Assembly (NCBI RefSeq): GCF_024138145.1
Contig: NZ_CP099997.1
Coordinates: forward strand, 1,674,001 to 1,738,000
Direction: 5' to 3'
DNA: 64,000 bases
Source of the DNA: Natronosalvus halobius
Lineage (GTDB): Archaea > Halobacteriota > Halobacteria > Halobacteriales > Natrialbaceae
The notes beneath the pieces were generated by a model. That model saw only the letters and a list, made by a program, of their open reading frames with translations, searched no databases and was not told where the DNA came from. Within the stretch, counting starts at the first letter, position 1. Each line of letters opens with the position of its first letter. Both the position numbers and the translations under genes were made by a program. Below are positions 22,946 through 34,858 of this stretch, in pieces.

Positions 22946-22961
22946 ATTAACATGTTCACGT
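22946..22961. promoter_or_regulatory. TTAACATG/ATGTTCAC element upstream of the Liv transporter operon
   Basis: The sequence attaacatgttcacgt contains TTAACAT and an overlapping ATGTTCACGT (8/10 to ATGTTAACAT). It lies about 70-85 bases before the ATG at 23031, with a TATA-like ctatttg just downstream. Related elements precede the HisD-like, HTH_10 and SDR genes at 31.7-32.7 kb. Confidence 0.4.
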
Positions 22962-23030
22962 TTGGCTATTTGCAGTGATGCTTGCTACCATACCTATGGC
23001 AATACAGCCACGAACGGGGGTTGCTACGCA

Positions 23031-24374
23031 ATGACCGACGCGACCAATCCGGCGGCGAACGGTGGTATCGACCGACGAGACGCACTGAAACTGTTCGGCG
23101 GGTCGGCGCTCGCGGTCGCGCTCGCTGGCTGTACCGAACTCCTGGGCAATGGCGACGGTGACGATTCCTCGCCGTCCGAGACGGGCGACGGCGACGTTCC
23201 GGACGAACCGATCCAGGCCGGGTTGCAGACCTTCAGAGAGGGTGCACCCGCCGTGCTCGGCGTGCAGGCGGAGTACGGAGCCGAAACCGCCGTCCGGCGA
23301 ATCAACGAAAACGGCGGCGTCGCGGGCCGGGAGATCGAACTCGACATCGTCGAGGAGGGGTCCGAACAGCTCGAGAACTACCAGCAGTTCGTCGACCAGG
23401 GCAAGGACGTCACTTTCGGCCCGATCTCGAGCGGCGGCCACGAGGCGATGGTGCCCGAAATCGACGACCAGGGCGTGATCAACGTCGCGACTGACGGCAC
23501 GGTGACGACGCTGTACGAGGAGAACTTTCCGGATACGACCTACTCGTTTCGCTTCCAGAATCACGACGTGATGGAGGCGCTGTCGGCCGCCAAGGAGGCG
23601 GTCGAGGTCCTCGGCGCGGACAACATCGACACGTACGCCGGTGTCAACCCGAACTACGCGTTCGGCGAGGACGAGATGGCGCTCTTTTCCGCCGGCATCG
23701 AGAAGCTCACCGGTGCGGAGGAGGTGTACAACGGGACGCCGGACCTCGCCGCGGACGACATGTCGACCCACGTGACGAACATCAACAGCGAGGAACCGGA
23801 CGTCGTCTTCACGAGTTGCTGGGGGGGCGACGCCACCCTGCTCCTCCAGCAGGCGCAGGCGAACGACATGCTCGACAACACGGAACTCGTCGTCGGCACG
23901 GTGCTGTACGGGTCGGCGAACGACTACGAGGAGGGCGACCTCGAGGGGCCAATCCACGGCGGATCGCGAAACTTCTACTGGGACCAGCCCACCACGGACC
24001 AGTGGACGCCCGCCGCAGACCTCTTCGACGAAGTACAAGACGAGTACGGCGTGATCCCGACCGCGCACTTCATGAGTGGCTACGGCGCGGTGACCGCCTG
24101 GGCGACGGCCGCCGACAAGGCCGTCAGGCTCCTCGGGCGCTGGCCCGACCAGGACGAACTCGCGATGGTGCTCGAGGAACACGGGTTCTTCACCCCGGCG
24201 GGCTACCACGTCATGTCGACCGACCATCAGGGCTACTCGAGCGCCCACTTCGGCGAGATGGCGTGGTCGGACGAAATCGGCGGGGCCATCCTCGAAAACG
24301 TCAACGTCTACGCGGCCGAAAACGTCTCTCCGCCGCCGGGAACGACGTCTCTCGACTGGATCGACAGCTGGTAG
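23031..24374 (+). CDS. Branched-chain-amino-acid-type ABC transporter, substrate-binding lipoprotein
   Basis: A 447-aa periplasmic-binding-protein-like lipoprotein. The N-terminus has a twin-Arg signal (DRRDALKLFGG) and lipobox LAGC near residue 36, so it is probably exported by Tat and anchored outside the membrane. The body (IQAGLQTFREGAPAVLGVQA, GPISSGGHEAMVPEI, FASYSFRFQ-like regions) is of the LivJ/peripla_BP_6 type that binds amino acids, amides, urea or aromatic acids. It heads an operon with two permeases, two ATPases and an SDR. The ligand is unknown. ATG 23031 is chosen because the signal starts right after it. Confidence 0.88.
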   Translation: MTDATNPAANGGIDRRDALKLFGGSALAVALAGCTELLGNGDGDDSSPSETGDGDVPDEPIQAGLQTFREGAPAVLGVQAEYGAETAVRRINENGGVAGREIELDIVEEGSEQLENYQQFVDQGKDVTFGPISSGGHEAMVPEIDDQGVINVATDGTVTTLYEENFPDTTYSFRFQNHDVMEALSAAKEAVEVLGADNIDTYAGVNPNYAFGEDEMALFSAGIEKLTGAEEVYNGTPDLAADDMSTHVTNINSEEPDVVFTSCWGGDATLLLQQAQANDMLDNTELVVGTVLYGSANDYEEGDLEGPIHGGSRNFYWDQPTTDQWTPAADLFDEVQDEYGVIPTAHFMSGYGAVTAWATAADKAVRLLGRWPDQDELAMVLEEHGFFTPAGYHVMSTDHQGYSSAHFGEMAWSDEIGGAILENVNVYAAENVSPPPGTTSLDWIDSW

Positions 24375-24449
24375 AGGTACGACGGACGCAATTTATGAAA
24401 TTCTTAGCACAAGTACATCGGAAAGCGACGGTCGAGAGGGTGTAACGAG

Positions 24450-25388
24450 ATGATCGAATCGCTCCTCACCCACACGCTCAACGGCCTCTACTACGGCCTG
24501 ATCCTGTTCATGATCGCGTCCGGACTGACGATCATCTTCGGTGTCCTGGGAATACTGAACCTCGCCCACGGCGAACTGTACGCGCTCGGGGCGTTTCTCG
24601 TGGTTACCGTCGTCGGATTCCTCGCAGGATTCGTCGCCGAACCCACGGGCCCACTTTCAGCGCTCGTCTTCGGTGTAGTAGTATTGCTGGGATCGCTCCT
24701 CGCGGCGGCCGTCCTGCTCCCGGTCGGCGCCGTCATCGAGTCGGTGTTCGTCAGACCGATTTACGAGCGCGAGGACGTCTACCAGTTACTGCTGACGTAC
24801 GCGCTGTTGCTAATCCTCGTCGACGTGATGAAGTTCCTCTGGGGGACGTCTCCGGTCAGCACCTCGTCGTACAGCAGACTCAACGAGATTCCGACGACCG
24901 AACTCGTGGGGTTCAGCTACCCTTCCTACAACGTGATCGTGATTCTCGTTGGCGTCGTGGTCTTCGCCTGGCTCATCTGGTTCTTCGACCGGACGAAGAC
25001 CGGGCGTATCGTTCGCGCGACGGCGATCAACCGCGAGATGTCGACCGCCATCGGCGTCAGCACGGACCGGACGTTCACGCTCGTCTTCGCCATGGGGGCG
25101 TTCTTCGCCGCCTTCGGCGGAGCGATGAACAGCATCGGGCCGAGCGACGCGTACCTCGAGATGGGGCTCGACCCCCTCGTACTCTCGTTCGTCGTGGTCG
25201 TCATAGGCGGCCTCGGAAGCCTGAAGGGGGCGTTCGTCGCCGCGTTGCTCGTCGGCGTCATCAGCCGGTGGACGGTCGGCGTGTTCAGCCTGCCCCAGCT
25301 CGAGCTGGCGGCACCGTTCATCCTGATGGCCATCATCCTGCTGGTCAAACCCGAAGGTCTCTACGGGACGTGGGGTGAGATCGAATGA
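24450..25388 (+). CDS. livH: ABC transporter permease, LivH type
   Basis: A 312-aa inner-membrane permease with eight or so helices. Family blocks are ASGLTIIFGVLGILNLAHGE at residues 25-45, GRIVRATAINREMSTAIGV and the EAA-like loop followed by VVVIGGLGSLKGAFVAALLV. It starts 75 bases after the binding-protein gene and overlaps livM by the ATGA sequence at 25385. It forms the membrane channel with LivM. Confidence 0.93.
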   Translation: MIESLLTHTLNGLYYGLILFMIASGLTIIFGVLGILNLAHGELYALGAFLVVTVVGFLAGFVAEPTGPLSALVFGVVVLLGSLLAAAVLLPVGAVIESVFVRPIYEREDVYQLLLTYALLLILVDVMKFLWGTSPVSTSSYSRLNEIPTTELVGFSYPSYNVIVILVGVVVFAWLIWFFDRTKTGRIVRATAINREMSTAIGVSTDRTFTLVFAMGAFFAAFGGAMNSIGPSDAYLEMGLDPLVLSFVVVVIGGLGSLKGAFVAALLVGVISRWTVGVFSLPQLELAAPFILMAIILLVKPEGLYGTWGEIE

Positions 25389-26494
25389 CTCGTGTTTCCA
25401 GAAATGGAGTCCTGGCGGTGTTAGCCATCGTCCTCCTGCTCGCCGTCCCCGACATCGCCAACGTGACGCCGCTGTCGTTCTCGATTATTCACCAGGGAAT
25501 CCTGTTCGGCATGGCGGCGATGGGGCTGAACCTCCTGTTGCGCCACACCGAACTGGTTTCGTTCGGACACACCGCGTTCTTCGGCGCCGGTGCCTACGGC
25601 GTCGCCGTACTGACGGCCCACTACGAGGTGTCGAACGGGTTGCTGTTGCTGCTCGGGGCGGCCCTGGCGGCGACGGCCATCGCTCTGCTGGTCGGCTATC
25701 TCGTCGCCGGCTACCTCGACATCTACTTCGCGCTGTTGACGCTCGCGTTCAACCAGGTGCTGTTCGCGTTCGTCCTCCAGAGCGGCTTCTTCAACTACAA
25801 CGATGGCCTCCGGGTCCGCGTAGGCGCCGACCGGCCGTCGCTGCTCGGAATCGACCGCTGGCTCGTCTCGACGTTCGGTGCCGACCCAATCGTCGCCTAC
25901 GACTACGTCCTGTACTACCTCACGGTCGTCGTCCTCCTCGTCATGGTCGCCGTGACGTGGAAAATCGTTAACTCGCCGTTCGGTCGGGCGCTCGACGCCA
26001 TCGGTCAGGATCGAACTCGAGCTCGGTTCATCGGCATTCCGGTCGACCGGTACGTCTGGATCGCGTTCACGCTCTCCGGCCTCTACGGCGGCATCGCGGG
26101 CGGGCTGTTCGCCCTCCTGCAACTTCACGTCCGACCAGAGCCGGTCCTCTTCGTCTTCGTCTCCGGTGAGATCCTGTTCATGGCGATCATCGGTGGCATC
26201 GGAACGATCGTCGGACCGATCGTCGGCGGCATCGTACTCATCTACTTACTCCGGCTAGCACGGTTCTACTTCGAGTACTACCACGCACTGACGGGACTCG
26301 TGTTGCTGGTCGTCGTCTTCTTCCTGCCGGAGGGAATACTCGGCTCGCTGCCGACGTTCAGAGCGGGCCTCGAGCGGCGCCTTCGCGACCCGACGCTCGT
26401 TCGCGGGGACGCCGCTACCGTCTCGACGACGATCCGCCAGCGACTGTACCGCGCCGCGACGACCGTTCGCATTCTCGTATTCGGGGTGAAATAG
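25385..26494 (+). CDS. livM: ABC transporter permease, LivM type
   Basis: A 369-aa permease with about nine helices. It has the LivM blocks MAAMGLNLLLRHTELVSFGH near residue 40, NSPFGRALDAIGQDRTRARF and GGIGTIVGPIVGGIVLIYLL. The C-terminal 40 residues are basic and cytosolic. It overlaps livH and is immediately followed by livG (stop and start adjacent), which fits one operon. Confidence 0.93.
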   Translation: MTRVSRNGVLAVLAIVLLLAVPDIANVTPLSFSIIHQGILFGMAAMGLNLLLRHTELVSFGHTAFFGAGAYGVAVLTAHYEVSNGLLLLLGAALAATAIALLVGYLVAGYLDIYFALLTLAFNQVLFAFVLQSGFFNYNDGLRVRVGADRPSLLGIDRWLVSTFGADPIVAYDYVLYYLTVVVLLVMVAVTWKIVNSPFGRALDAIGQDRTRARFIGIPVDRYVWIAFTLSGLYGGIAGGLFALLQLHVRPEPVLFVFVSGEILFMAIIGGIGTIVGPIVGGIVLIYLLRLARFYFEYYHALTGLVLLVVVFFLPEGILGSLPTFRAGLERRLRDPTLVRGDAATVSTTIRQRLYRAATTVRILVFGVK

Positions 26495-27271
26495 ATGCTC
26501 GAAGCACGCAACTTACGGAAGGAATTCGGAGTGCTCCGCGCCACCGACGACGTCTCGCTCACGTTCGGGGAGACCCCCGGCGAGATGGTCTTCATCGTCG
26601 GTCCGAACGGCGCCGGAAAGACCACGCTCATCAACCTCCTCACGGGGTTGCTCGAACCCGATCAGGGCTCGGTCGTCGTCCACGAGGACGACGGCAGCGG
26701 CTCGACGGTCGAGCGCGACATCACGGACACGTCGCCGGAAAGACGGGTCAACGAAGGACTCGTTCGGAGCTTCCAGATCGTCCACGTCTTCGAGGAGATG
26801 ACCGTTCGCGAAAACCTTCGCGTCTCCGTCCTCTCGCGTTACGGCAAGACGCTGAGCATGCGAACCCGCGACGATTCGCACGACGAAGTCGAAGAAACAG
26901 TCGACGGTCTGCTCGAGCAGTTCCGGCTCGAAGACGTCGCCAACGAGGTGGCGGAGACGCTGCCTCATGGCGACCGAAAGCTCCTCGACGTGGCGATGTC
27001 GTTCGCCCTCGATCCGACGTACCTGCTCCTGGACGAGCCGACCTCCGGGGTCGCCACGCGGGAGAAGGAGTACGTCATCGAAACCATCGTCGAGGCGAGC
27101 GAGGCCGACGGCGTCACCACCGTCACGATCGAACACGACATGGATCTCGTCAAGGAGTACGCCGACCGACTGGTCGTTCTCCACGAGGGGAGCGTGTTCC
27201 GGGAGGGCAAACCCGAACTGCTCGAGACCGACAGCGAACTGCGGCGGGTCCTCCTGGGGGTGGACGAATGA
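26495..27271 (+). CDS. livG: ABC transporter ATP-binding protein, LivG type
   Basis: A 258-aa ATPase. Walker A is GPNGAGKTTLINLLTG, Walker B YLLLDEPTSGV, and the LivG-type insertion EGLVRSFQIVHVFEEMTVRE is present. The ABC signature is unusual, LPHGDRKLLDVAMSF, with Pro-His-Gly in place of Ser-x-Gly. The H-loop is TIEHDMD. It pairs with LivF to power import. The start follows the livM stop directly and the end overlaps livF by ATGA. Confidence 0.93.
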   Translation: MLEARNLRKEFGVLRATDDVSLTFGETPGEMVFIVGPNGAGKTTLINLLTGLLEPDQGSVVVHEDDGSGSTVERDITDTSPERRVNEGLVRSFQIVHVFEEMTVRENLRVSVLSRYGKTLSMRTRDDSHDEVEETVDGLLEQFRLEDVANEVAETLPHGDRKLLDVAMSFALDPTYLLLDEPTSGVATREKEYVIETIVEASEADGVTTVTIEHDMDLVKEYADRLVVLHEGSVFREGKPELLETDSELRRVLLGVDE

Positions 27272-28008
27272 GTTCGTCGCACCCGCTGCTCGAGGTCTCG
27301 AACCTCTCGGCGACCGTCGAGGGATTCGAGGTCACCCACGGCGTCGATCTGACAGTGCGCGAGGGCGAAGCCGTCGCGCTCGTCGGGCGCAATGGCGCCG
27401 GAAAGACCTCGACGTTCCGGGCGATCATGGGACTGACGCCCATCGCAAGCGGGTCGATACGACTTCACGGCGAGGAACTGACGACGCTCCGACCGGAACT
27501 CATCCCGCGACGGGGAATCGGGTATCAGCCGGAAAATCGCGACCTGTTCACGGGCATGAGCGTCGAGGAGAATTTCCGGCTTCCAATCTGGACGGCGGGT
27601 GACGCTCGCGGCGTCGACGACGAGGACGCCATGGTCGAGGACATCTTCGACCTGTTCTCCGAACTGGAGTCGCGCCGCGATGCCGAGGTCCAGAACCTGA
27701 GTGGTGGCCAGGGGAAGATGACCGCGATCGGTCGGGCACTCGCACTCAACCCAGACCTGCTCATTCTCGACGAACCGCTCGAGGGACTGGCGCCGGTCGT
27801 CGTCGAGAATCTCAAGACATACATCCGGGAGATCATCGACCGGGACATCTCCGTGCTCATCGCCGAGTCGAACGCGAGCCACGTCCCCGACATCGTGGAC
27901 CGAATGTACGTCATGGAACGCGGCGAAATCGTCGACAGCGGCGATCCGGACGTCCTGGTCGAAGACGAGGACATCCAGATGCTGATGCAAGGCGGTGGCG
28001 GGGAATGA
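27268..28008 (+). CDS. livF: ABC transporter ATP-binding protein, LivF type
   Basis: A 246-aa ATPase. Walker A GRNGAGKTSTFRAIMG, signature NLSGGQGKMTAIGRAL, Walker B LLILDEPLEGLAP, and an Asn (ESNAS) where an H-loop His is usual; LivF proteins often carry Q/N there. It lies between livG and the SDR gene, overlapping each by ATGA, so all five genes are translationally coupled. Confidence 0.93.
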   Translation: MSSSHPLLEVSNLSATVEGFEVTHGVDLTVREGEAVALVGRNGAGKTSTFRAIMGLTPIASGSIRLHGEELTTLRPELIPRRGIGYQPENRDLFTGMSVEENFRLPIWTAGDARGVDDEDAMVEDIFDLFSELESRRDAEVQNLSGGQGKMTAIGRALALNPDLLILDEPLEGLAPVVVENLKTYIREIIDRDISVLIAESNASHVPDIVDRMYVMERGEIVDSGDPDVLVEDEDIQMLMQGGGGE

Positions 28009-28811
28009 CGGCGGGTCATTCGAGTCCCACTGCCGACGAGATGGCAGGCCGCACCGTCTTTGTCACCGGGGCCAGCCAGGGCATCGGCCGTCGGATCGCC
28101 CTCGCGTTCGCCGACCGCGGGGCGAACGTCGCCCTCGCGGCGCGGGGCGACGGAATCGAGGAAACGGCCGCCGAAATCGGCGACCCGTCGCGGACGCTCC
28201 CCGTTCGTACCGACGTCACCGACGAGTCCTCTGTACGCTCGTCGATCGCCGAGACCGTCGACAGCTTCGGCGGCCTCGACGTCCTCGTCAACAACGCGGG
28301 GATCGCCGGACCGACGGCGCCGATTGGAGCGGTCGAGCGCGATGACTGGGACCGGACGATGGCCGTGAACGCCACCGGCCCCTACCTGACGGCGAAACAC
28401 GCGGTGGCTGACCTCCGCGAGAGCGACCGGGCGAGCGTCATCAACATTTCGTCGATCAGCGGCAAACGGCCGCTCGAGAACCGGACGCCCTACGTCGCCT
28501 CGAAGATGGCGGTGATCGGTCTCACCCGGACCCTCGCGTTCGAATTAGGCGAGGACGACATTACGGTCAACGCGATCTGTCCAGGGGCGACCAGCGGTCC
28601 GCGGATCGAGGCCGTCATCGAAGCACAGGCCGAGAGCCTTGGCGTGGAGTACGACGAGGCCAAACGGCGAGTGTTCACCGAGGACGCCGCGCTCGAGACG
28701 CTGGTCGACGCCGACGACGTGGCCGAGATGGCCCTATTCCTCGCGAGCGACGCCGCCCGCCACGTGACGGCCCAGGACGTCAACGTCGACGGCGGTACCG
28801 CCTGGTACTGA
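28005..28811 (+). CDS. Short-chain dehydrogenase/reductase coupled to the Liv operon
   Basis: A 268-aa classical SDR. NAD(P)-binding TGASQGIGRRIAL near residue 22, NNAGIAG at about 104, the catalytic Ser in ISSISGKRP and YVASK (Tyr and Lys), and the C-terminal NVDGGTAWY. The Asp/Arg after strand 2 (LAARGDG) does not fix the cofactor. Because it overlaps livF by ATGA it probably oxidises the imported compound or an early product. It is homologous to, but clearly different from, the SDR at 32733. Confidence 0.92.
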   Translation: MTAGHSSPTADEMAGRTVFVTGASQGIGRRIALAFADRGANVALAARGDGIEETAAEIGDPSRTLPVRTDVTDESSVRSSIAETVDSFGGLDVLVNNAGIAGPTAPIGAVERDDWDRTMAVNATGPYLTAKHAVADLRESDRASVINISSISGKRPLENRTPYVASKMAVIGLTRTLAFELGEDDITVNAICPGATSGPRIEAVIEAQAESLGVEYDEAKRRVFTEDAALETLVDADDVAEMALFLASDAARHVTAQDVNVDGGTAWY

Positions 28812-29006
28812 CGAGTACCTGGGGAACTCCGTCGACGTCCACGACTGAGAGAACTCGGCCACATTCCGAGGTAGCGTACGGAGACCGCCACTCCATTTGC
28901 AGTCCGTGAATTGCTTGCAACCTGTGCTCGAGTGTCGGCGCTTGCACGAACGTCACCACGTAGCTATCTGGCCCTGGCTTCCGTACCACCCTCGAGGACG
29001 TGTTCA

Positions 29007-30407
29007 ATGACGATTAAAACGCCAGTAGACCACCCGGACTACGAAACGCTCACCGAAACGACCCGCGGCGAAGTACTCCGTCCCGACGATGACGGCTACG
29101 ACGAAGCCCGATCGGTCTGGAACGGAATGATCGACCGCCGACCGGCCGTTATCGTTCGGCCAACCGGCACGGCCGACGTAATCACCGCGGTCGAGTTCGC
29201 TCGCGACCACGGCCTTCCCCTCGCCGTGAAGGGAGGTGGCCATAACGTCGCCGGAAACGCCGTCTGCGACGACGGCCTCACGATCGACCTGTCTCCGTTG
29301 GCGTCGGTGCGGGTCGATCCCGCAGCCCGAACCGCCCGGGTCGGTCCCGGCGCAACGATGGGGGATCTCGACCACGAAACGCAGGCGTTCGGCCTCGCTA
29401 CCCCGGGCGGGGTCATCTCGACGACTGGTGTCGCCGGACTCACGCTCGGGGGCGGTGTCGGCTGGCTCAGCCGCAAGTACGGGCTCGCGATCGACAACCT
29501 CCGGTCGGTCGACGTCGTCACCGCGGACGGCAACCTGATCACCGCGAGCGAAGCCGAGAACCCGGACCTCTTCTGGGCGATTCGCGGTGGCAGCGGCAAC
29601 TTCGGGGTCGTCACGTCGTTCGAGTTCGACCTGCACGAGGTCGGTCCGGACGTGCTCTTCGGCCCGACTGTGTACGCCTACGAGGACGCACCCGACATCC
29701 TCTCACGCTACGCGGCGTTCGCTCGAGAGGCGCCGCCGGAGTGTGCCGTCTGGGCGAACAGCGTGGCCGCGCCGCCGCTTCCGGTCATCCCGGAAGAAAT
29801 CCACGGTACCACGGTCCTGGTGCTCGTGCAGTTCTACGCCGGCGACCTCGAGGAAGGCGAGACAGTGCTCGAACCGCTCCGCGAATACGGCGACCCCATT
29901 GCCGACGCCGTCGCGCCGACCCCCTACACGGAGGCCCAGCGTCTCCTGGACGATCTGTACGCCGAGGGGGCTCGTAACTACTGGAAGGCGCCGAATTTCA
30001 CGGAACTCACCGACGCGACGATTGACACCATCGTCGAGTACGCCGAACGGTTCCCGACGGGACAGTCCGAAATCCTCCTCCACCAGGTCGGCGGGGCAGT
30101 CAACGAGGTCGGACCGGACGAGACCGCCTACCCGCACCGGGAGACGGCGTTCATCGCGAGCGTCGCCGCTCGGTGGGAGGATCCGGCGAACGACGACGAG
30201 TGCATCGCGTGGGTGCGGGAGTGCCACGACGCGCTCGATGAAGGAGCCACCGGCGGAACGTACGTGAACTTCGAGGGCGACCAGGAGGGGCGCGAGCGGA
30301 ACGCCTACGGCGTGAACTACGATCGGCTCGCCGAGACGAAGGCCGAGTACGATCCGGAGAACGTCTTCCGGACGAATCAGAACGTCGAGCCGGTGAGGCA
30401 GGGGTAG
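29007..30407 (+). CDS. FAD-linked oxidase (BBE domain, 6-hydroxynicotine oxidase-like)
   Basis: A 466-aa flavoprotein of the berberine-bridge-enzyme group. The PCMH FAD-binding domain has VKGGGHNVAGNAVCDDG, where the His is in the position of the covalent 8alpha-histidyl FAD link, and LTLGGGVGWLSRKYGLAIDN, which lacks the Cys used for a second covalent bond. The C-terminal BBE motif is YVNFEGDQEGRERNAYGVNY. Such enzymes oxidise alcohols, sugars or amines with O2. It follows the SDR gene by about 195 bases and starts at ATG 29007 (MTIKTPVDHPDY). It has no obvious signal peptide. Confidence 0.9.
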   Translation: MTIKTPVDHPDYETLTETTRGEVLRPDDDGYDEARSVWNGMIDRRPAVIVRPTGTADVITAVEFARDHGLPLAVKGGGHNVAGNAVCDDGLTIDLSPLASVRVDPAARTARVGPGATMGDLDHETQAFGLATPGGVISTTGVAGLTLGGGVGWLSRKYGLAIDNLRSVDVVTADGNLITASEAENPDLFWAIRGGSGNFGVVTSFEFDLHEVGPDVLFGPTVYAYEDAPDILSRYAAFAREAPPECAVWANSVAAPPLPVIPEEIHGTTVLVLVQFYAGDLEEGETVLEPLREYGDPIADAVAPTPYTEAQRLLDDLYAEGARNYWKAPNFTELTDATIDTIVEYAERFPTGQSEILLHQVGGAVNEVGPDETAYPHRETAFIASVAARWEDPANDDECIAWVRECHDALDEGATGGTYVNFEGDQEGRERNAYGVNYDRLAETKAEYDPENVFRTNQNVEPVRQG

Positions 30408-30438
30408 GAGGTCGTAGAAGAGGGAGTTTCTCCCCAAA

Positions 30439-31725
30439 TTACTGTCGTTCCGCCTCGCCGTCGAACCGCTTCTCGGCAGAGAGTCGGTGCGCGACCGTCC
30501 CCTCGAGTTCGCAGATTTTGGCCGCATGCGGTGCAATCGAGGCCGCTCCCTCGGCGGTCAGTTGCTGGTGGGTGAGCGTCTTCAGGTAGGTGCCGACCCA
30601 GATACCACCGGTGTACGTCGACACCTCGAGCGTCGGCAGACAGTGGTTCGTCCCGACGGCCTTGTCCCCGAAGACGACCGGCGAGTGGTGGCCGAGAAAG
30701 AGCGAGCCGTAGTTGACGAGGTCGTCGACGTACTCGCGGGGCTCGTCGCTCATCACCTGGAGGTGCTCCATCGCATAGTCGTTCGCGACCGCTATAGCGG
30801 CATCACGGTCTTCGGCGACGATCACCTCGCCGTTTTCCGCCCAGCACGCTCGAGCGGTTTCGGCCGTCGGCAACTCCTCGAGTTGCGCCTCGACGGCGTC
30901 TATCGTCTCGCGAGCGAGCGATTCCTCGAGCGAGACGAGGACCACCCGGGAGTCGGTGTCGTGTTCGGCCTGGGCGAGCAGGTCGGTCGCCACCAGTTCG
31001 GGATCGGCGGTGTCGTCGGCGATGATGAGCACCTCGGTCGGTCCAGCGAGGAAGTCGACGCCGACGTGGCCGAACACCTGTCGCTTCGCCTCGGTCGTGT
31101 AGGCGTTCCCGGGGCCGGTGACGACGTTGACGGTCGGCACGGATTCGGTACCGTAAGCCATCGCCGCGATCGCCTGGGCGCCGCCCACGCAGTAGATTTC
31201 GTCCGCACCAGTTCGATCCATCGCGTACAGCTGTGCGGGCTGGACGCTCCCGTCGTCCTGGGGCGGCGCACAGGCCACGACGTGTTCGACGCCGGCGACG
31301 ACGGCGGGGACGATCGTCATCGCCGGCGACGCGACGAGCGGGTACCGTCCGCCAGGAACGTACACCCCGGCTCGCTCGATGGGGACCACTCGCTGTCCGA
31401 GTCGAACCCCGTCGTCGAACTCGCGCTCGAAGCCCTCGAGGTGGCCGCGCTGTTCCTCGTGGAATTCGTGAACGTTCTCGATCGTCTCGTCGATCACTTC
31501 CCGATCCTCCTCCGAGAGACGTTTTCGAGCCGACGCCAGTTCCTCGTCCGTCACCCGGATCGACTCCCGCTCGACGCCGTCGAACCTGGCGGTGAGTTCG
31601 CGGAGGGCGTCGTCCCCGTCACTTCGGACGGCAGCGATGATCTCCGAGACGGATTCGGTCACTTCGGGTGGAAACTCGAGCGACGGTCGCTCCGCGCCCT
31701 TGATATGCGTGCTATTTTCTATCAC
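30439..31725 (-). CDS. Histidinol dehydrogenase family protein, sulfopropanediol dehydrogenase (HpsN)-like
   Basis: A 428-aa HisD-fold, zinc- and NAD-dependent dehydrogenase. Zinc and catalytic residues are kept: Gln252 and His255 (AQAEHD), Asp354, His413 (AHRLS), and the Glu-His pair 320-321 (MEHLQ). The segments AGVYVPGGRYPLVASPAMT, GPGNAYTTEAKRQVFG and YTGGIWVGTYLKTLTHQ are closer to my recollection of HpsN, which oxidises 2,3-dihydroxypropane-1-sulfonate, than to biosynthetic HisD. A GTG start at 31725 lies 26-32 bases after a TATA-like gtttatc, indicating a leaderless mRNA. It sits among SDR, transporter and regulator genes rather than his genes. The substrate is inferred, not shown. Confidence 0.8.
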   Translation of the reverse strand: MIENSTHIKGAERPSLEFPPEVTESVSEIIAAVRSDGDDALRELTARFDGVERESIRVTDEELASARKRLSEEDREVIDETIENVHEFHEEQRGHLEGFEREFDDGVRLGQRVVPIERAGVYVPGGRYPLVASPAMTIVPAVVAGVEHVVACAPPQDDGSVQPAQLYAMDRTGADEIYCVGGAQAIAAMAYGTESVPTVNVVTGPGNAYTTEAKRQVFGHVGVDFLAGPTEVLIIADDTADPELVATDLLAQAEHDTDSRVVLVSLEESLARETIDAVEAQLEELPTAETARACWAENGEVIVAEDRDAAIAVANDYAMEHLQVMSDEPREYVDDLVNYGSLFLGHHSPVVFGDKAVGTNHCLPTLEVSTYTGGIWVGTYLKTLTHQQLTAEGAASIAPHAAKICELEGTVAHRLSAEKRFDGEAERQ

Positions 31726-31761
31726 GACATGAATTGACGCGGCACCCTCGGATAAACTCCG

Positions 31762-31771
31762 ATGTTAACAC
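31762..31771. promoter_or_regulatory. ATGTTAACAC operator-like element upstream of the HisD-like gene
   Basis: Nine of ten bases match the palindrome ATGTTAACAT. It lies four bases upstream of the TATA-like gtttatc (31751-31757, minus strand) of the HisD-like gene, where an activator next to the BRE would bind. Confidence 0.45.
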
Positions 31772-31824
31772 GGAAACACAGGGAGGCGCCTCGAGATTTC
31801 GGATCGGTCGCGAGAACGGCGACG

Positions 31825-32544
31825 CTAGAGCGGGGTCTCCTCGTCGTCCACGTCCGAGAGCGCCGACAGCGCGGCCCCGAGCAGTTTGCGCTCGCTCCGT
31901 CGGAGGTTCATCGAGACGGCCGTCTTCGAGATGTCGAAGTGATCCGCGAGTTCGTCGAGGGTCGCCCCGCGAGGCGTCTCGTAGTAGCCGAATCGAGAGG
32001 CCGTTTCGAACGTCTTCCGTTCGGTCTCCGTGAGCGACCGGCAGCCGTCGAGCAACCGCCTCGCGCTGTCGGCGTTCTCGAGGAGGTCGAACAGCGTGGA
32101 CGCGCCGAACTGATCCCGGTTTTCGACGTCGTAATCGTTGTGGCGCTCGAGGTCCGCAAGCGTCCTGTCCTCCGCGTCGTCGTCGTCGAAGCCGACGTGC
32201 CAGTGCTCGCGACCGTTTTCGATCTGGAACGGACCGGTGATGTAGCCTCCGTGTCGCTGGATCGTCTTCATCGCGTTCGTCTGTTCGATAACTGTCCCGA
32301 TCTGGGCGACGTTCCCCCGCCGCGAGAGCAGATAGTAGTCGGACATGTTTCGGTGCTCTCGAAGCGTCTGGAGGCCGGTATCCAGCGTTCCGGGGGAATT
32401 TCCCCTGGCGATAAGGCGAGTCTCGAGTTTTTCGGCGTCCGTATCCAGTTGCCACTGGACGGCCGAGAACGCGATGTCGACGTCGTCAGTGGTGTCGATG
32501 AACGGACAGTCGTACTGACGCATGTCGATGTTTAGGTCGATCAT
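31825..32544 (-). CDS. HTH_10 (bacterio-opsin activator-like) transcriptional regulator
   Basis: A 239-aa haloarchaeal regulator. The N-terminal part (MRQYDCPFIDTTDDVDIAFS) is a ligand-sensing region of the type found in many HTH_10 proteins. The C-terminal HTH_10 domain runs from about residue 170: LTETERKTFETASRFGYYET, GATLDELADHFDISKTAVSM, LRRSERKLL. It lies between the HisD-like gene (downstream, same strand) and the divergent SDR gene and has an ATGTTAACAT-like element in its promoter. It is the best candidate regulator of the island. Confidence 0.9.
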   Translation of the reverse strand: MIDLNIDMRQYDCPFIDTTDDVDIAFSAVQWQLDTDAEKLETRLIARGNSPGTLDTGLQTLREHRNMSDYYLLSRRGNVAQIGTVIEQTNAMKTIQRHGGYITGPFQIENGREHWHVGFDDDDAEDRTLADLERHNDYDVENRDQFGASTLFDLLENADSARRLLDGCRSLTETERKTFETASRFGYYETPRGATLDELADHFDISKTAVSMNLRRSERKLLGAALSALSDVDDEETPL

Positions 32545-32581
32545 CGCAGGTCAATACCCGAATGGGGCCCACCGACATTAA

Positions 32582-32591
32582 TTGTTAGCAT
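32582..32591. promoter_or_regulatory. ATGTTAACAT-like element upstream of the HTH_10 gene
   Basis: On the minus strand the sequence ATGCTAACAA matches the palindrome at 8 of 10 positions and runs directly into a TATA-like ttaatg, about 32-36 bases before ATG 32544. Confidence 0.3.
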
Positions 32592-32677
32592 CTCCCTCAT
32601 AGCGTTACCTTTCCTCTCACTGGTCGTCTCTTCACGCGGGCGCTCCCTTCCCTCACCCTCCGCGACCGCCCATTGAT

Positions 32678-32687
32678 ATGTTAACAT
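32678..32687. promoter_or_regulatory. ATGTTAACAT palindrome upstream of the SDR gene
   Basis: A perfect 10-base palindrome, five bases upstream of the TATA-like gttttag (32692-32698) of the SDR gene at 32733. The geometry equals that at the HisD-like gene on the other strand. Confidence 0.5.
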
Positions 32688-32732
32688 TCGAGTTTTAGCG
32701 TGACTCGAGTCAACTAGTCACTCGATACAACG

Positions 32733-33590
32733 ATGACTCAGGATCAAGTCGCCGTCCCAGCGGTCACTCGAGAGACAATTCACACGGTAGATGACGATTC
32801 GTTCGCCGAGGAAAACGTCTGTATCGTCACCGGTGCAGCGTCGGGCATCGGCCAGGCGGTCGCCCTCACCGCCGCCGAGAACGGACTCACCGTCGCCGCA
32901 ACGGACTACGACGAGGCCGGCCTCGAGGAAACGGTCGACCGCGCCGACGAAATCGGTGTCGCCGGGTCCGTAGCGCCGGTGGTCGGGGATCTCACCGTCG
33001 ACGAAGACATCGAACGGATCGTCCAGGAGGCGGCGAATCTCGGCTCCGTGAAGTACCTCGCCAACGTCGCCGGGATGCAACACATCGACGCCATCGAGGA
33101 GTTCCCGATGGACGCCTACGACCGCATCCACCAGATCATGCTCAGAGCACCGATCTATCTGACGAAGCTCTGTATCCCGCACTTTCGAGAAACGGCGGAC
33201 GGGCGCGGGTGCGTCGGGAACATGGCCTCGGTTCACGGCCACTACGTCACGAGCGATAAAGTCGCCTACAACGTCTCGAAGTTCGGCCTGCGCGGCCTCA
33301 CGCAGTCGATCGCCGCCGAAGGCGAAGGCGACGTTCGGTCGTTTTCGGTCAGTACGGGCTACGTCAAGACTCCTCTCGTCACGAACCAGCTCCAGGACAC
33401 TGCCGAACAGCGCGGGATCAGCGTCGACGAGGTCATCTCCGACGTGATGCTCGGCCAGTCCCGCGTCAAAGAGATGATGGATCCGGTCGACGTCGCCAAC
33501 CTTTTCGTCGTCGGGTTCTCGAAGCTCGGGCGCCACCTCGATGGTGGCGACCTGCTCTTCGACGGCGGGATGACCCTGACTTACGAGTGA
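32733..33590 (+). CDS. Short-chain dehydrogenase (3-hydroxybutyrate dehydrogenase-like)
   Basis: A 285-aa classical SDR with an N-terminal extension of about 28 residues. TGAASGIGQAVALT, ATDYDEAGLEE (an Asp after strand 2, favouring NAD), NVAGMQH, catalytic MASVHGHYV and YNVSK, and the C-terminal LFDGGMTLTYE. It resembles the PHB-type dehydrogenase subgroup that oxidises small hydroxy acids and polyols. It is divergent from the HTH_10 gene and has the best copy of the shared palindrome. The partner substrate in the island is unknown. Confidence 0.9.
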   Translation: MTQDQVAVPAVTRETIHTVDDDSFAEENVCIVTGAASGIGQAVALTAAENGLTVAATDYDEAGLEETVDRADEIGVAGSVAPVVGDLTVDEDIERIVQEAANLGSVKYLANVAGMQHIDAIEEFPMDAYDRIHQIMLRAPIYLTKLCIPHFRETADGRGCVGNMASVHGHYVTSDKVAYNVSKFGLRGLTQSIAAEGEGDVRSFSVSTGYVKTPLVTNQLQDTAEQRGISVDEVISDVMLGQSRVKEMMDPVDVANLFVVGFSKLGRHLDGGDLLFDGGMTLTYE

Positions 33591-33607
33591 TCGCGGAGGT
33601 ACTGACG

Positions 33608-33738
33608 CGGATGAGTCCCGAGATGTGAGTAACACGGCGGGCCCCGAGGGTGCGGATACCGGGTGGGCCCCGAGGATGCGGATAACGGGTGGGTCTCGAG
33701 GGTGTGGATAACGGGATGGGTACCGAGGATGTCGTCAG
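33608..33738. repeat. Imperfect tandem repeat, about five units of 25-27 bases
   Basis: Five units start at 33608, 33635, 33660, 33686 and 33712. The best unit is cgggtgggccccgaggat followed by gcggataa. The array begins just after the SDR stop and precedes the convergent TFB gene. A minus-strand open frame crosses it but looks like a by-product of the repeat. Confidence 0.75.
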
Positions 33739-33889
33739 AAGACGTCCGCTCGGATTCTCCAGGATCGTCGGTGGGTCGAGGGGTCAAGTCGGCGAGAAAA
33801 CGGCAACGATTCGCTGACGGACCGATTGTCACGCTCACCACGCTAATGGATCCGAAAATATCGCACTCGCGAGAACGATTTACCGCCGA

Positions 33890-34858
33890 TCAGTACAACC
33901 CGACTGCCTCGATCTGCTCCTGGTACCGGTTGCGGATCGTCACCTCGGTCACCTGGGCGACGTTGGCGACCTCCCGCTGGGTCTTCTTCTCGTTACAGAG
34001 CAGCGAGGCCGCGTAGATGGCCGCGGCAGCGTAACCCGTCGGGGATTTCCCGGAGAGGAGCCCCTTCTCGGCCGTCACGTCGATGATCTCGTTGGCCTTC
34101 GCCTGGACCTCCTCGGAGAGCTCGAGTTCCGAACAGAACCGGGGGACGTACTTCTTCGGGTCGACCGGCTCCATGCCCAGACCGAGTTCCTGAGCCACGT
34201 AGCGGTAGGTTCGGCCGATCTCCTTGCGATCGACCCGCGAGACGGCGGCGACTTCCTCGAGGCTCCGCGGAATGCCCTCGATTCGGCAGGCGGCGTACAG
34301 CGCCGAGGTGGCGACGCCCTCGATCGAACGCCCGCGGATGAGGTCCTCCTGGAGCGCCCGGCGATAGAGCATGCAGGCGACCTCGCGGACGGACCGTGGA
34401 ATGCCGAGTGCCGAGGACATCCGGTCGATTTCGGAGAGGGCGAACTGGAGGTTGCGCTCGCCCGCGTCCTTGGTTCGGATGCGCTCTTGCCACTTGCGCA
34501 GGCGGTGCATCTGACTGCGCTTTTCCGAGGAGAGCGAGCGGCCGTAGGCGTCCTTGTCCTTCCAGTCGATGGCCGTCGTGAGCCCCTTGTCGTGCATCGT
34601 CTGGGTCGTCGGCGCACCGACGCGCGATTTGCTGTCGCGCTCGGCTGCGTTGAACGCCCGCCACTCCGGCCCGCGGTCGATACGGGATTCTTCGACGATC
34701 AGCCCACACCGCTCGCAACTGATTTCGCTCCCCCCATCGCTCGTGACCAGCGACTCGGACTCACACTCCGGACACTGTTTCACCGTCGACTGAGTCGAGT
34801 CCGTTTCTTTCGTAGCCGACGTCGCGGATTGCTCTCGTTCGCGGGTGGGGCGTATCAT
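33890..34858 (-). CDS. tfb: Transcription initiation factor IIB (TFB)
   Basis: A 322-aa archaeal TFB that recruits RNA polymerase to the TBP-TATA complex. N-terminal zinc ribbon CPECESES followed by ISCERCG (four Cys, residues about 28-51), B-reader/linker region ESRIDRGPEWRAF, then two cyclin-like repeats (from about residues 130 and 220; HFSEL-like SEIDRMSSALGIP and VQAKANEIIDVTAEKGL). The ATG at 34858 is preceded at five bases by the strong ribosome-binding site ggaggt and further upstream by TATA-like ggcttaacc, so it is not leaderless. Haloarchaea have several TFB paralogues; which one this is cannot be told. Confidence 0.95.
   Translation of the reverse strand: MIRPTREREQSATSATKETDSTQSTVKQCPECESESLVTSDGGSEISCERCGLIVEESRIDRGPEWRAFNAAERDSKSRVGAPTTQTMHDKGLTTAIDWKDKDAYGRSLSSEKRSQMHRLRKWQERIRTKDAGERNLQFALSEIDRMSSALGIPRSVREVACMLYRRALQEDLIRGRSIEGVATSALYAACRIEGIPRSLEEVAAVSRVDRKEIGRTYRYVAQELGLGMEPVDPKKYVPRFCSELELSEEVQAKANEIIDVTAEKGLLSGKSPTGYAAAAIYAASLLCNEKKTQREVANVAQVTEVTIRNRYQEQIEAVGLY

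Follow-up and report, generated by a model that had tools for sequence, protein, structure and literature searches.

A probable operator of an HTH_10 regulator conserved at three promoters of a Natronosalvus halobius gene island

A Conserved 14-bp Element at Three Promoters

Three promoters of a gene island in the haloarchaeon Natronosalvus halobius share a conserved element that is probably the operator of an HTH_10 regulator encoded within the same island. The island lies in the window, by which we mean the whole stretch of 64,000 nucleotides that was analysed, and the proposed binder, here termed REG, is a 239-aa protein of the HVO_2525_N plus HTH_10 type (31825..32544, minus strand). The first-pass annotation had described a palindromic 10-mer, ATGTTAACAT, at four promoters of the island. 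Its four matches were correct in sequence and coordinates (10/10 at 32678-32687, 9/10 at 31762-31771, 8/10 at 22952-22961 and 8/10 on the minus strand at 32582-32591), and so was the distance of 5 bp from the 10-mer to the TATA box in the SDR and HisD promoters, but membership could be upheld for three of the four promoters only. The conserved unit is also longer and shifted relative to the 10-mer, reading GTTGATATGTTAAC and standing exactly 7 bp before TTTTAG in 50 promoters of orthologues of the short-chain dehydrogenase gene SDR1. The palindrome had thus been wrongly delimited, since its right-hand AT varies among relatives (AG, GC, GG, GT, AC).

In the window, the SDR1 promoter carries the operator as ATTGATATGTTAAC (32672..32685, plus strand), one of two perfect genome-wide matches to RTTRAYATGTNNAC-N7-TWTTWG, and the TATA-like box TTTTAG follows 7 bp further on (32693..32698, plus strand) at a spacing that is invariant in relatives. 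Mean pairwise identity among 49 distinct SDR1 promoters reaches 0.92 within the 14-mer and 0.81 within the TATA box, against 0.42 across the 7-bp spacer and 0.32 over the 20 bp that precede the 14-mer. The latter has the form GTTRAYATGTNNAC, an imperfect dyad with symmetry at 10 of the 14 consensus positions. Conservation in orthologous promoters, which the first-pass annotation had proposed as a check, is therefore a property of the corrected 14-mer, near-invariant in the 50 SDR1 promoters.

A matrix trained on SDR1 promoters alone, so that the SDR1 score is that of a training member, gave three high values in the 64-kb window, namely 40.2 at SDR1, 15.7 at the promoter of the ABC substrate-binding protein (22946) and 15.2 at the HisD-like gene (31751, minus strand), the fourth-best score being -1.4. 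The ABC site, ATTAACATGTTCAC (22946..22959, plus strand), is both the second-best matrix site and the second perfect pattern match, its TATA box is TATTTG (22967-22972), and orthologous ABC promoters read GTTAACATGTACAC-N7-TATTTG. This promoter takes matrix rank two in 17 of the 20 relatives' loci that have the transporter; in the remaining three it is third behind HisD (L046) or missing, once with a split gene (L069) and once at a contig end (L073). Some of the best readings fall on the opposite strand because the element is near-palindromic. The third-best site is operator-like, GTTTCCGTGTTAAC (31764..31777, minus strand), and precedes the TATA box TTTATC (31751-31756) of the HisD-like gene; its left half deviates from the consensus, and it is kept as GTTACCGTGTTAAC in the sole relative with the gene at this locus (genome G111, locus L046). 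The seven-base spacing between operator and TATA box is common to the SDR1, ABC and HisD-like promoters, and holds in all 50 SDR1 promoters. The fourth proposed site, at REG's own promoter (32582-32591), was rejected, as its geometry differs and the matrix score in the sense of REG is -21.3. The same operator was sought as a sign of autoregulation in the REG promoters of 50 loci and was not found there (-21.3 in the window, median -10.9).

Matrix scans were applied to individual loci and a pattern scan to whole genomes. In the genome of the window, the combined pattern RTTRAYATGTNNAC-N7-TWTTWG is matched perfectly at exactly two places, both within this island (SDR1 and ABC). Across 125 genomes of the family it gave 65 matches at up to one mismatch against 6 for the control, being present in 45 of 51 genomes with REG versus 3 of 74 without it, where one of the 45 (G055) is counted through a pattern match elsewhere; a scan of 392 genomes across the order returned perfect matches from the family of the window alone. 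The 14-mer alone, at up to three mismatches, showed no excess above control, and the TATA spacing is thus needed for the search. The bare 10-mer is within the range of chance: the genome-wide enrichment that had been suggested as a check gave 17 places at up to one mismatch versus 20 for a reversed control, and the window holds 5 matches to ATGTTAACAT at up to two mismatches versus 3.2 expected, a number reached by 25 of 100 shuffles. The match at 32678 is the sole exact one in the 3.85-Mb genome, and the probability that a second place differing by one base at most falls by chance within 1 kb of this match is about 0.008.

Co-occurrence of the Element and REG

REG combines an N-terminal HVO_2525_N domain (Pfam PF24279; 65.9 bits, cut-off 27) with a C-terminal HTH_10 domain (PF04967; 58.1 bits, cut-off 23.1), and a moderately confident structure model (mean pLDDT 67) places the HTH region at residues 192-234, with helices at 192-203 and 207-234. 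Orthologues at 73-92% identity were found in 51 genomes of the family, its own included, among them members of Natrinema, Natronococcus, Natronorubrum, Natribaculum, Natrialba and Halobiforma. REG is divergent to the SDR1 orthologue in 50 of these 51 genomes, and the ABC transporter adjoins in about 20.

With leave-one-out matrices, all 51 SDR1 promoters in genomes with REG score at least 14.6, whereas 8 of 10 score at most 0.5 in a comparison set of ten genomes that have SDR1 orthologues (75-79%) and no REG orthologue. The site is thus present in 51 of 51 versus 2 of 10 promoters; of the two exceptions, G084 keeps it intact (38.8) and G082 keeps it (20.3) at a spacing 1 bp shorter. Four entries from genomes with REG that appear site-less under a strict one-mismatch rule have diverged sites according to the leave-one-out matrix. 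In seven of the eight site-less promoters (L173, L175, L177-L181), TTTTAT replaces TTTTAG. On the SDR1 gene tree REG changes eight times, giving 6 independent pairs of which 4-5 are concordant and 0 discordant (p 0.06-0.125), and some of the losses may be one event, since the promoters lacking REG resemble one another. Four REG-less operons of SDR1 and ligase (L173, L175, L177, L179) share the promoter CACTTTTATCGTGATCC, yet are scattered on the SDR1 tree, which may reflect either a common origin or a promoter transferred together with its operon.

In genome G041, where three different contigs hold REG, SDR1 and ABC, each of the two targets retains the site. In other families, which have REG-like proteins of 58-80% identity, the site occurs at the ABC promoter of L197 (REG 80%), at SDR1 and an acyl-CoA-ligase-like gene in L201 (71%), and at ABC and a ligase-like gene in L202 (58%). 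No site was found near REG at the other-family loci L199, L200, L203 and L204, the last two with homologues of 56-58%, nor near the REG orthologues (72%) of G195 and G202. The first-pass annotation had traced the sites to one common regulator, for which the HTH_10 protein whose gene lies between them was the simplest candidate, and comparative evidence supports this suggestion in that the divergent gene order is kept, the presence of the site follows that of the regulator, sites are retained with targets on other contigs, and the operator type follows the type of recognition helix, as described below.

Proposed Mechanism and Alternative Explanations

What was observed directly is the element with its spacing and conservation, the fact that it is confined to these promoters, and the way in which it tracks REG; from these observations we infer binding, dimerisation, activation and an inducer. 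We consider it likely, with good confidence, that the 14-bp element is the REG operator, to which a REG dimer would bind so as to aid TFB/TBP and co-activate the ABC, SDR1 and HisD genes. The N-terminal domain of REG presumably senses a metabolite, the dimer would sit on the dyad, upstream of the BRE, and from there REG would assist TFB/TBP at a weak TATA box (TTTTAG, TATTTG or TTTATC). The ABC importer and the SDR dehydrogenase, with the acyl-CoA ligase in most relatives, would in this way be co-induced, and in the lineage of the window the HisD-like dehydrogenase may have been added to the regulon. The operator is probably an upstream activating site, which stays a putative assignment, and a role of REG as activator is plausible given a site upstream of BRE/TATA and beside a non-consensus TATA box.

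The same operator and protein might also work in the opposite sense, with REG as a repressor that binds beside the BRE, blocks TFB and is released by the substrate. Divergent regulator-target pairs are often those of repressors, and since only 7 bp separate the operator edge from the TATA box, a BRE of about 6 bp would directly adjoin the operator. Against this, the site covers neither the TATA box nor the start site, and the relatives known from the literature, Bat and DmsR, are activators (PMC1447603). Moreover, the box is the off-consensus TTTTAG where the site is present and TTTTAT in seven promoters without REG, as if a stronger core promoter had replaced an activator, so we regard repression as unlikely.

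We give still less credence to the idea that a different regulator, such as one of the many other HTH_10 proteins of the cell, uses the site and that REG is a mere neighbour. The cell has at least 22 REG-like matches, and two REG-less genomes retain the site, both of which would suit such an explanation; on the other side, gain or loss of REG goes with gain or loss of the site, and the operator type matches the recognition helix of the local REG-like protein. A strong core-promoter form such as an extended BRE, acting with no specific regulator, would explain the constant distance to the TATA box, but it is very improbable, as the known haloarchaeal BRE and TATA motifs are CGAAA and TTWT (PMC4983044), the genome has the exact element at two places only, a scan of 392 genomes of the order found it in none outside the family, and orthologous promoters of REG-less genomes do without it. 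That four loose matches to an AT-rich palindrome were simply picked post hoc would agree with the unenriched bare 10-mer and the failure of the fourth site, but chance is contradicted for three of the four sites by a 14-mer and spacing kept in about 50 genomes and recurring at ABC promoters, and can be practically dismissed.

Paralogues and a Second Operator Type

Paralogues of the same two-domain type (PF24279 plus PF04967), 49-57% identical, were grouped by the start of their recognition helix. With helix S-K, the group of REG, 48 of 61 loci have the exact type 1 operator and none has type 2, defined as GTTNGTATATCAAC with at most one mismatch; with helix S-D, type 2 is found in 13 of 14 loci and type 1 in 1, and since the rows are related, Fisher values for this link between helix and operator overstate the evidence. 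Type 2 sites, too, have a TATA-like box close by; GTTGGTATATCAAC-N7-GTTTAGG, for example, reads as N7-GTTTAG. The second type precedes SDR1 homologues (69-70%) in L205, L206 and L208, and is also found at the SDR1 homologue of L172; in G116, which belongs to the genus of the window, a type-2-like site, GTTGGTATACGAAC-N7, stands before SDR1. We tentatively propose, as a serious possibility, a code for the HVO_2525-type HTH_10 proteins in which a 14-bp GTT-N8-AAC dyad would lie 7 bp from the TATA box and residue 2 of the recognition helix (S-K or S-D) would pair with the centre of the dyad (RAYATGTN or NGTATATC, respectively), and orthologous target operons could swap regulator by swapping operator. 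The correspondence between operator and helix is to us the most interesting part of the analysis, and a paralogue group with a related but different operator offers a direct and cheap test of specificity within one family.

Two further observations concern the paralogues. Near a REG paralogue of 51% identity, with the recognition helix SKPAVSKNLRR, the loci L187 (3816 and 8405) and L188 (5310 and 9926) each hold two copies of GTTGATATGTTAAC at other genes, probably another regulon that uses the same operator. Both operator types are present in L207 (5179 and 10129) near a paralogue with helix SDTAISKNLRR.

Comparison with Known Haloarchaeal Systems

A haloarchaeal genome has dozens of HTH_10 genes; NarO belongs to this protein family, the N-terminal domains of Bat are PAS/GAF domains, and GvpE is, to our knowledge, not an HTH_10 protein. 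In the literature, described binding sites were found for few haloarchaeal HTH_10 proteins, and here sequence alone allows a regulator to be named along with its proposed 14-bp operator, the geometry of the promoters and a small regulon. HVO_2525-type proteins (PF24279 plus PF04967) share the two-domain architecture of REG; no operator or function for them was found in a literature search that covered mainly open-access papers.

The Bat UAS at the bop promoter of Halobacterium is a short upstream element beside an off-consensus TATA box in a small regulon (PMC1447603). Bat resembles REG in its HTH_10-type DNA-binding C-terminus and in an element next to a non-consensus TATA box (PMC1447603), but the N-terminal domains differ, and Bat was tested by mutation whereas the REG operator is a prediction from genome comparison. 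The nearest described motif is the semi-palindrome CGAAYATDKTYG, common to several denitrification promoters of Haloferax mediterranei, in which no homologue of NarO, the proposed denitrification regulator of H. volcanii, was found (PMC10062603). It shares with the 14-mer a AACATGTT-like centre, with CGAACATGTTCG at nos and nor (PMC10062603), but is 12 bp long, has outer CG/CG in place of GTT/AAC, and has its position given from the start codon. GvpE acts through a 20-nt UAS directly upstream of BRE and TATA at gas-vesicle promoters, a placement like that of the REG site, with a different sequence and different genes (PMC8241225).

Genes of the Island and the Likely Substrate

SDR1 (32733..33590, plus strand) is a short-chain dehydrogenase resembling 3-hydroxybutyrate dehydrogenase by profile and by structure neighbours, its nearest solved structures being D-3-hydroxybutyrate dehydrogenases. 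Its score against TIGR01963 (3-hydroxybutyrate dehydrogenase) is 201.7 bits and stays below the cut-off of 307, which makes it a relative and not a named member of that family. The ABC transporter (23031..28008, plus strand) is of the branched-chain-amino-acid type (Peripla_BP_6, BPD_transp_2, ABC_tran) and comprises a substrate-binding protein, two permeases and two ATPases, syntenic in about 20 relatives. The HisD-like dehydrogenase (30439..31725, minus strand) exceeds the TIGR00069 (histidinol dehydrogenase) cut-off of 243.8 with 476.2 bits, and its nearest solved structure is the (R)-DHPS dehydrogenase 8wwe; it is the second HisD copy of the genome, the other being located at C1:1198266-1199435.

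The core of the regulon, an importer, an SDR and an enzyme like acetate- or acetoacetate-CoA ligase, points to a small hydroxy acid that is taken up and oxidised, and the regulon offers a handle on what the N-terminal domain of REG senses; the substrate itself is a guess, because neither SDR1 nor the ligase reaches a named-family cut-off. An island for sulfopropanediol degradation was considered and rejected, as the conserved locus of other relatives contains neither HisD nor SDR2 nor the FAD enzyme, and our literature search returned no paper joining haloarchaea with sulfopropanediol. Between ABC and REG (28005-31725) lie SDR2, an FAD/berberine-bridge-type oxidoreductase and the HisD-like dehydrogenase; SDR2 and HisD occur at the same place only in G111, where the FAD enzyme was not seen. 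An acyl-CoA ligase of about 670 aa follows SDR1 in 44 relatives, and in the window, which has no ligase, a short G-rich stretch with imperfect repeats (33590-33890) and a TFB-like gene stand in its place.
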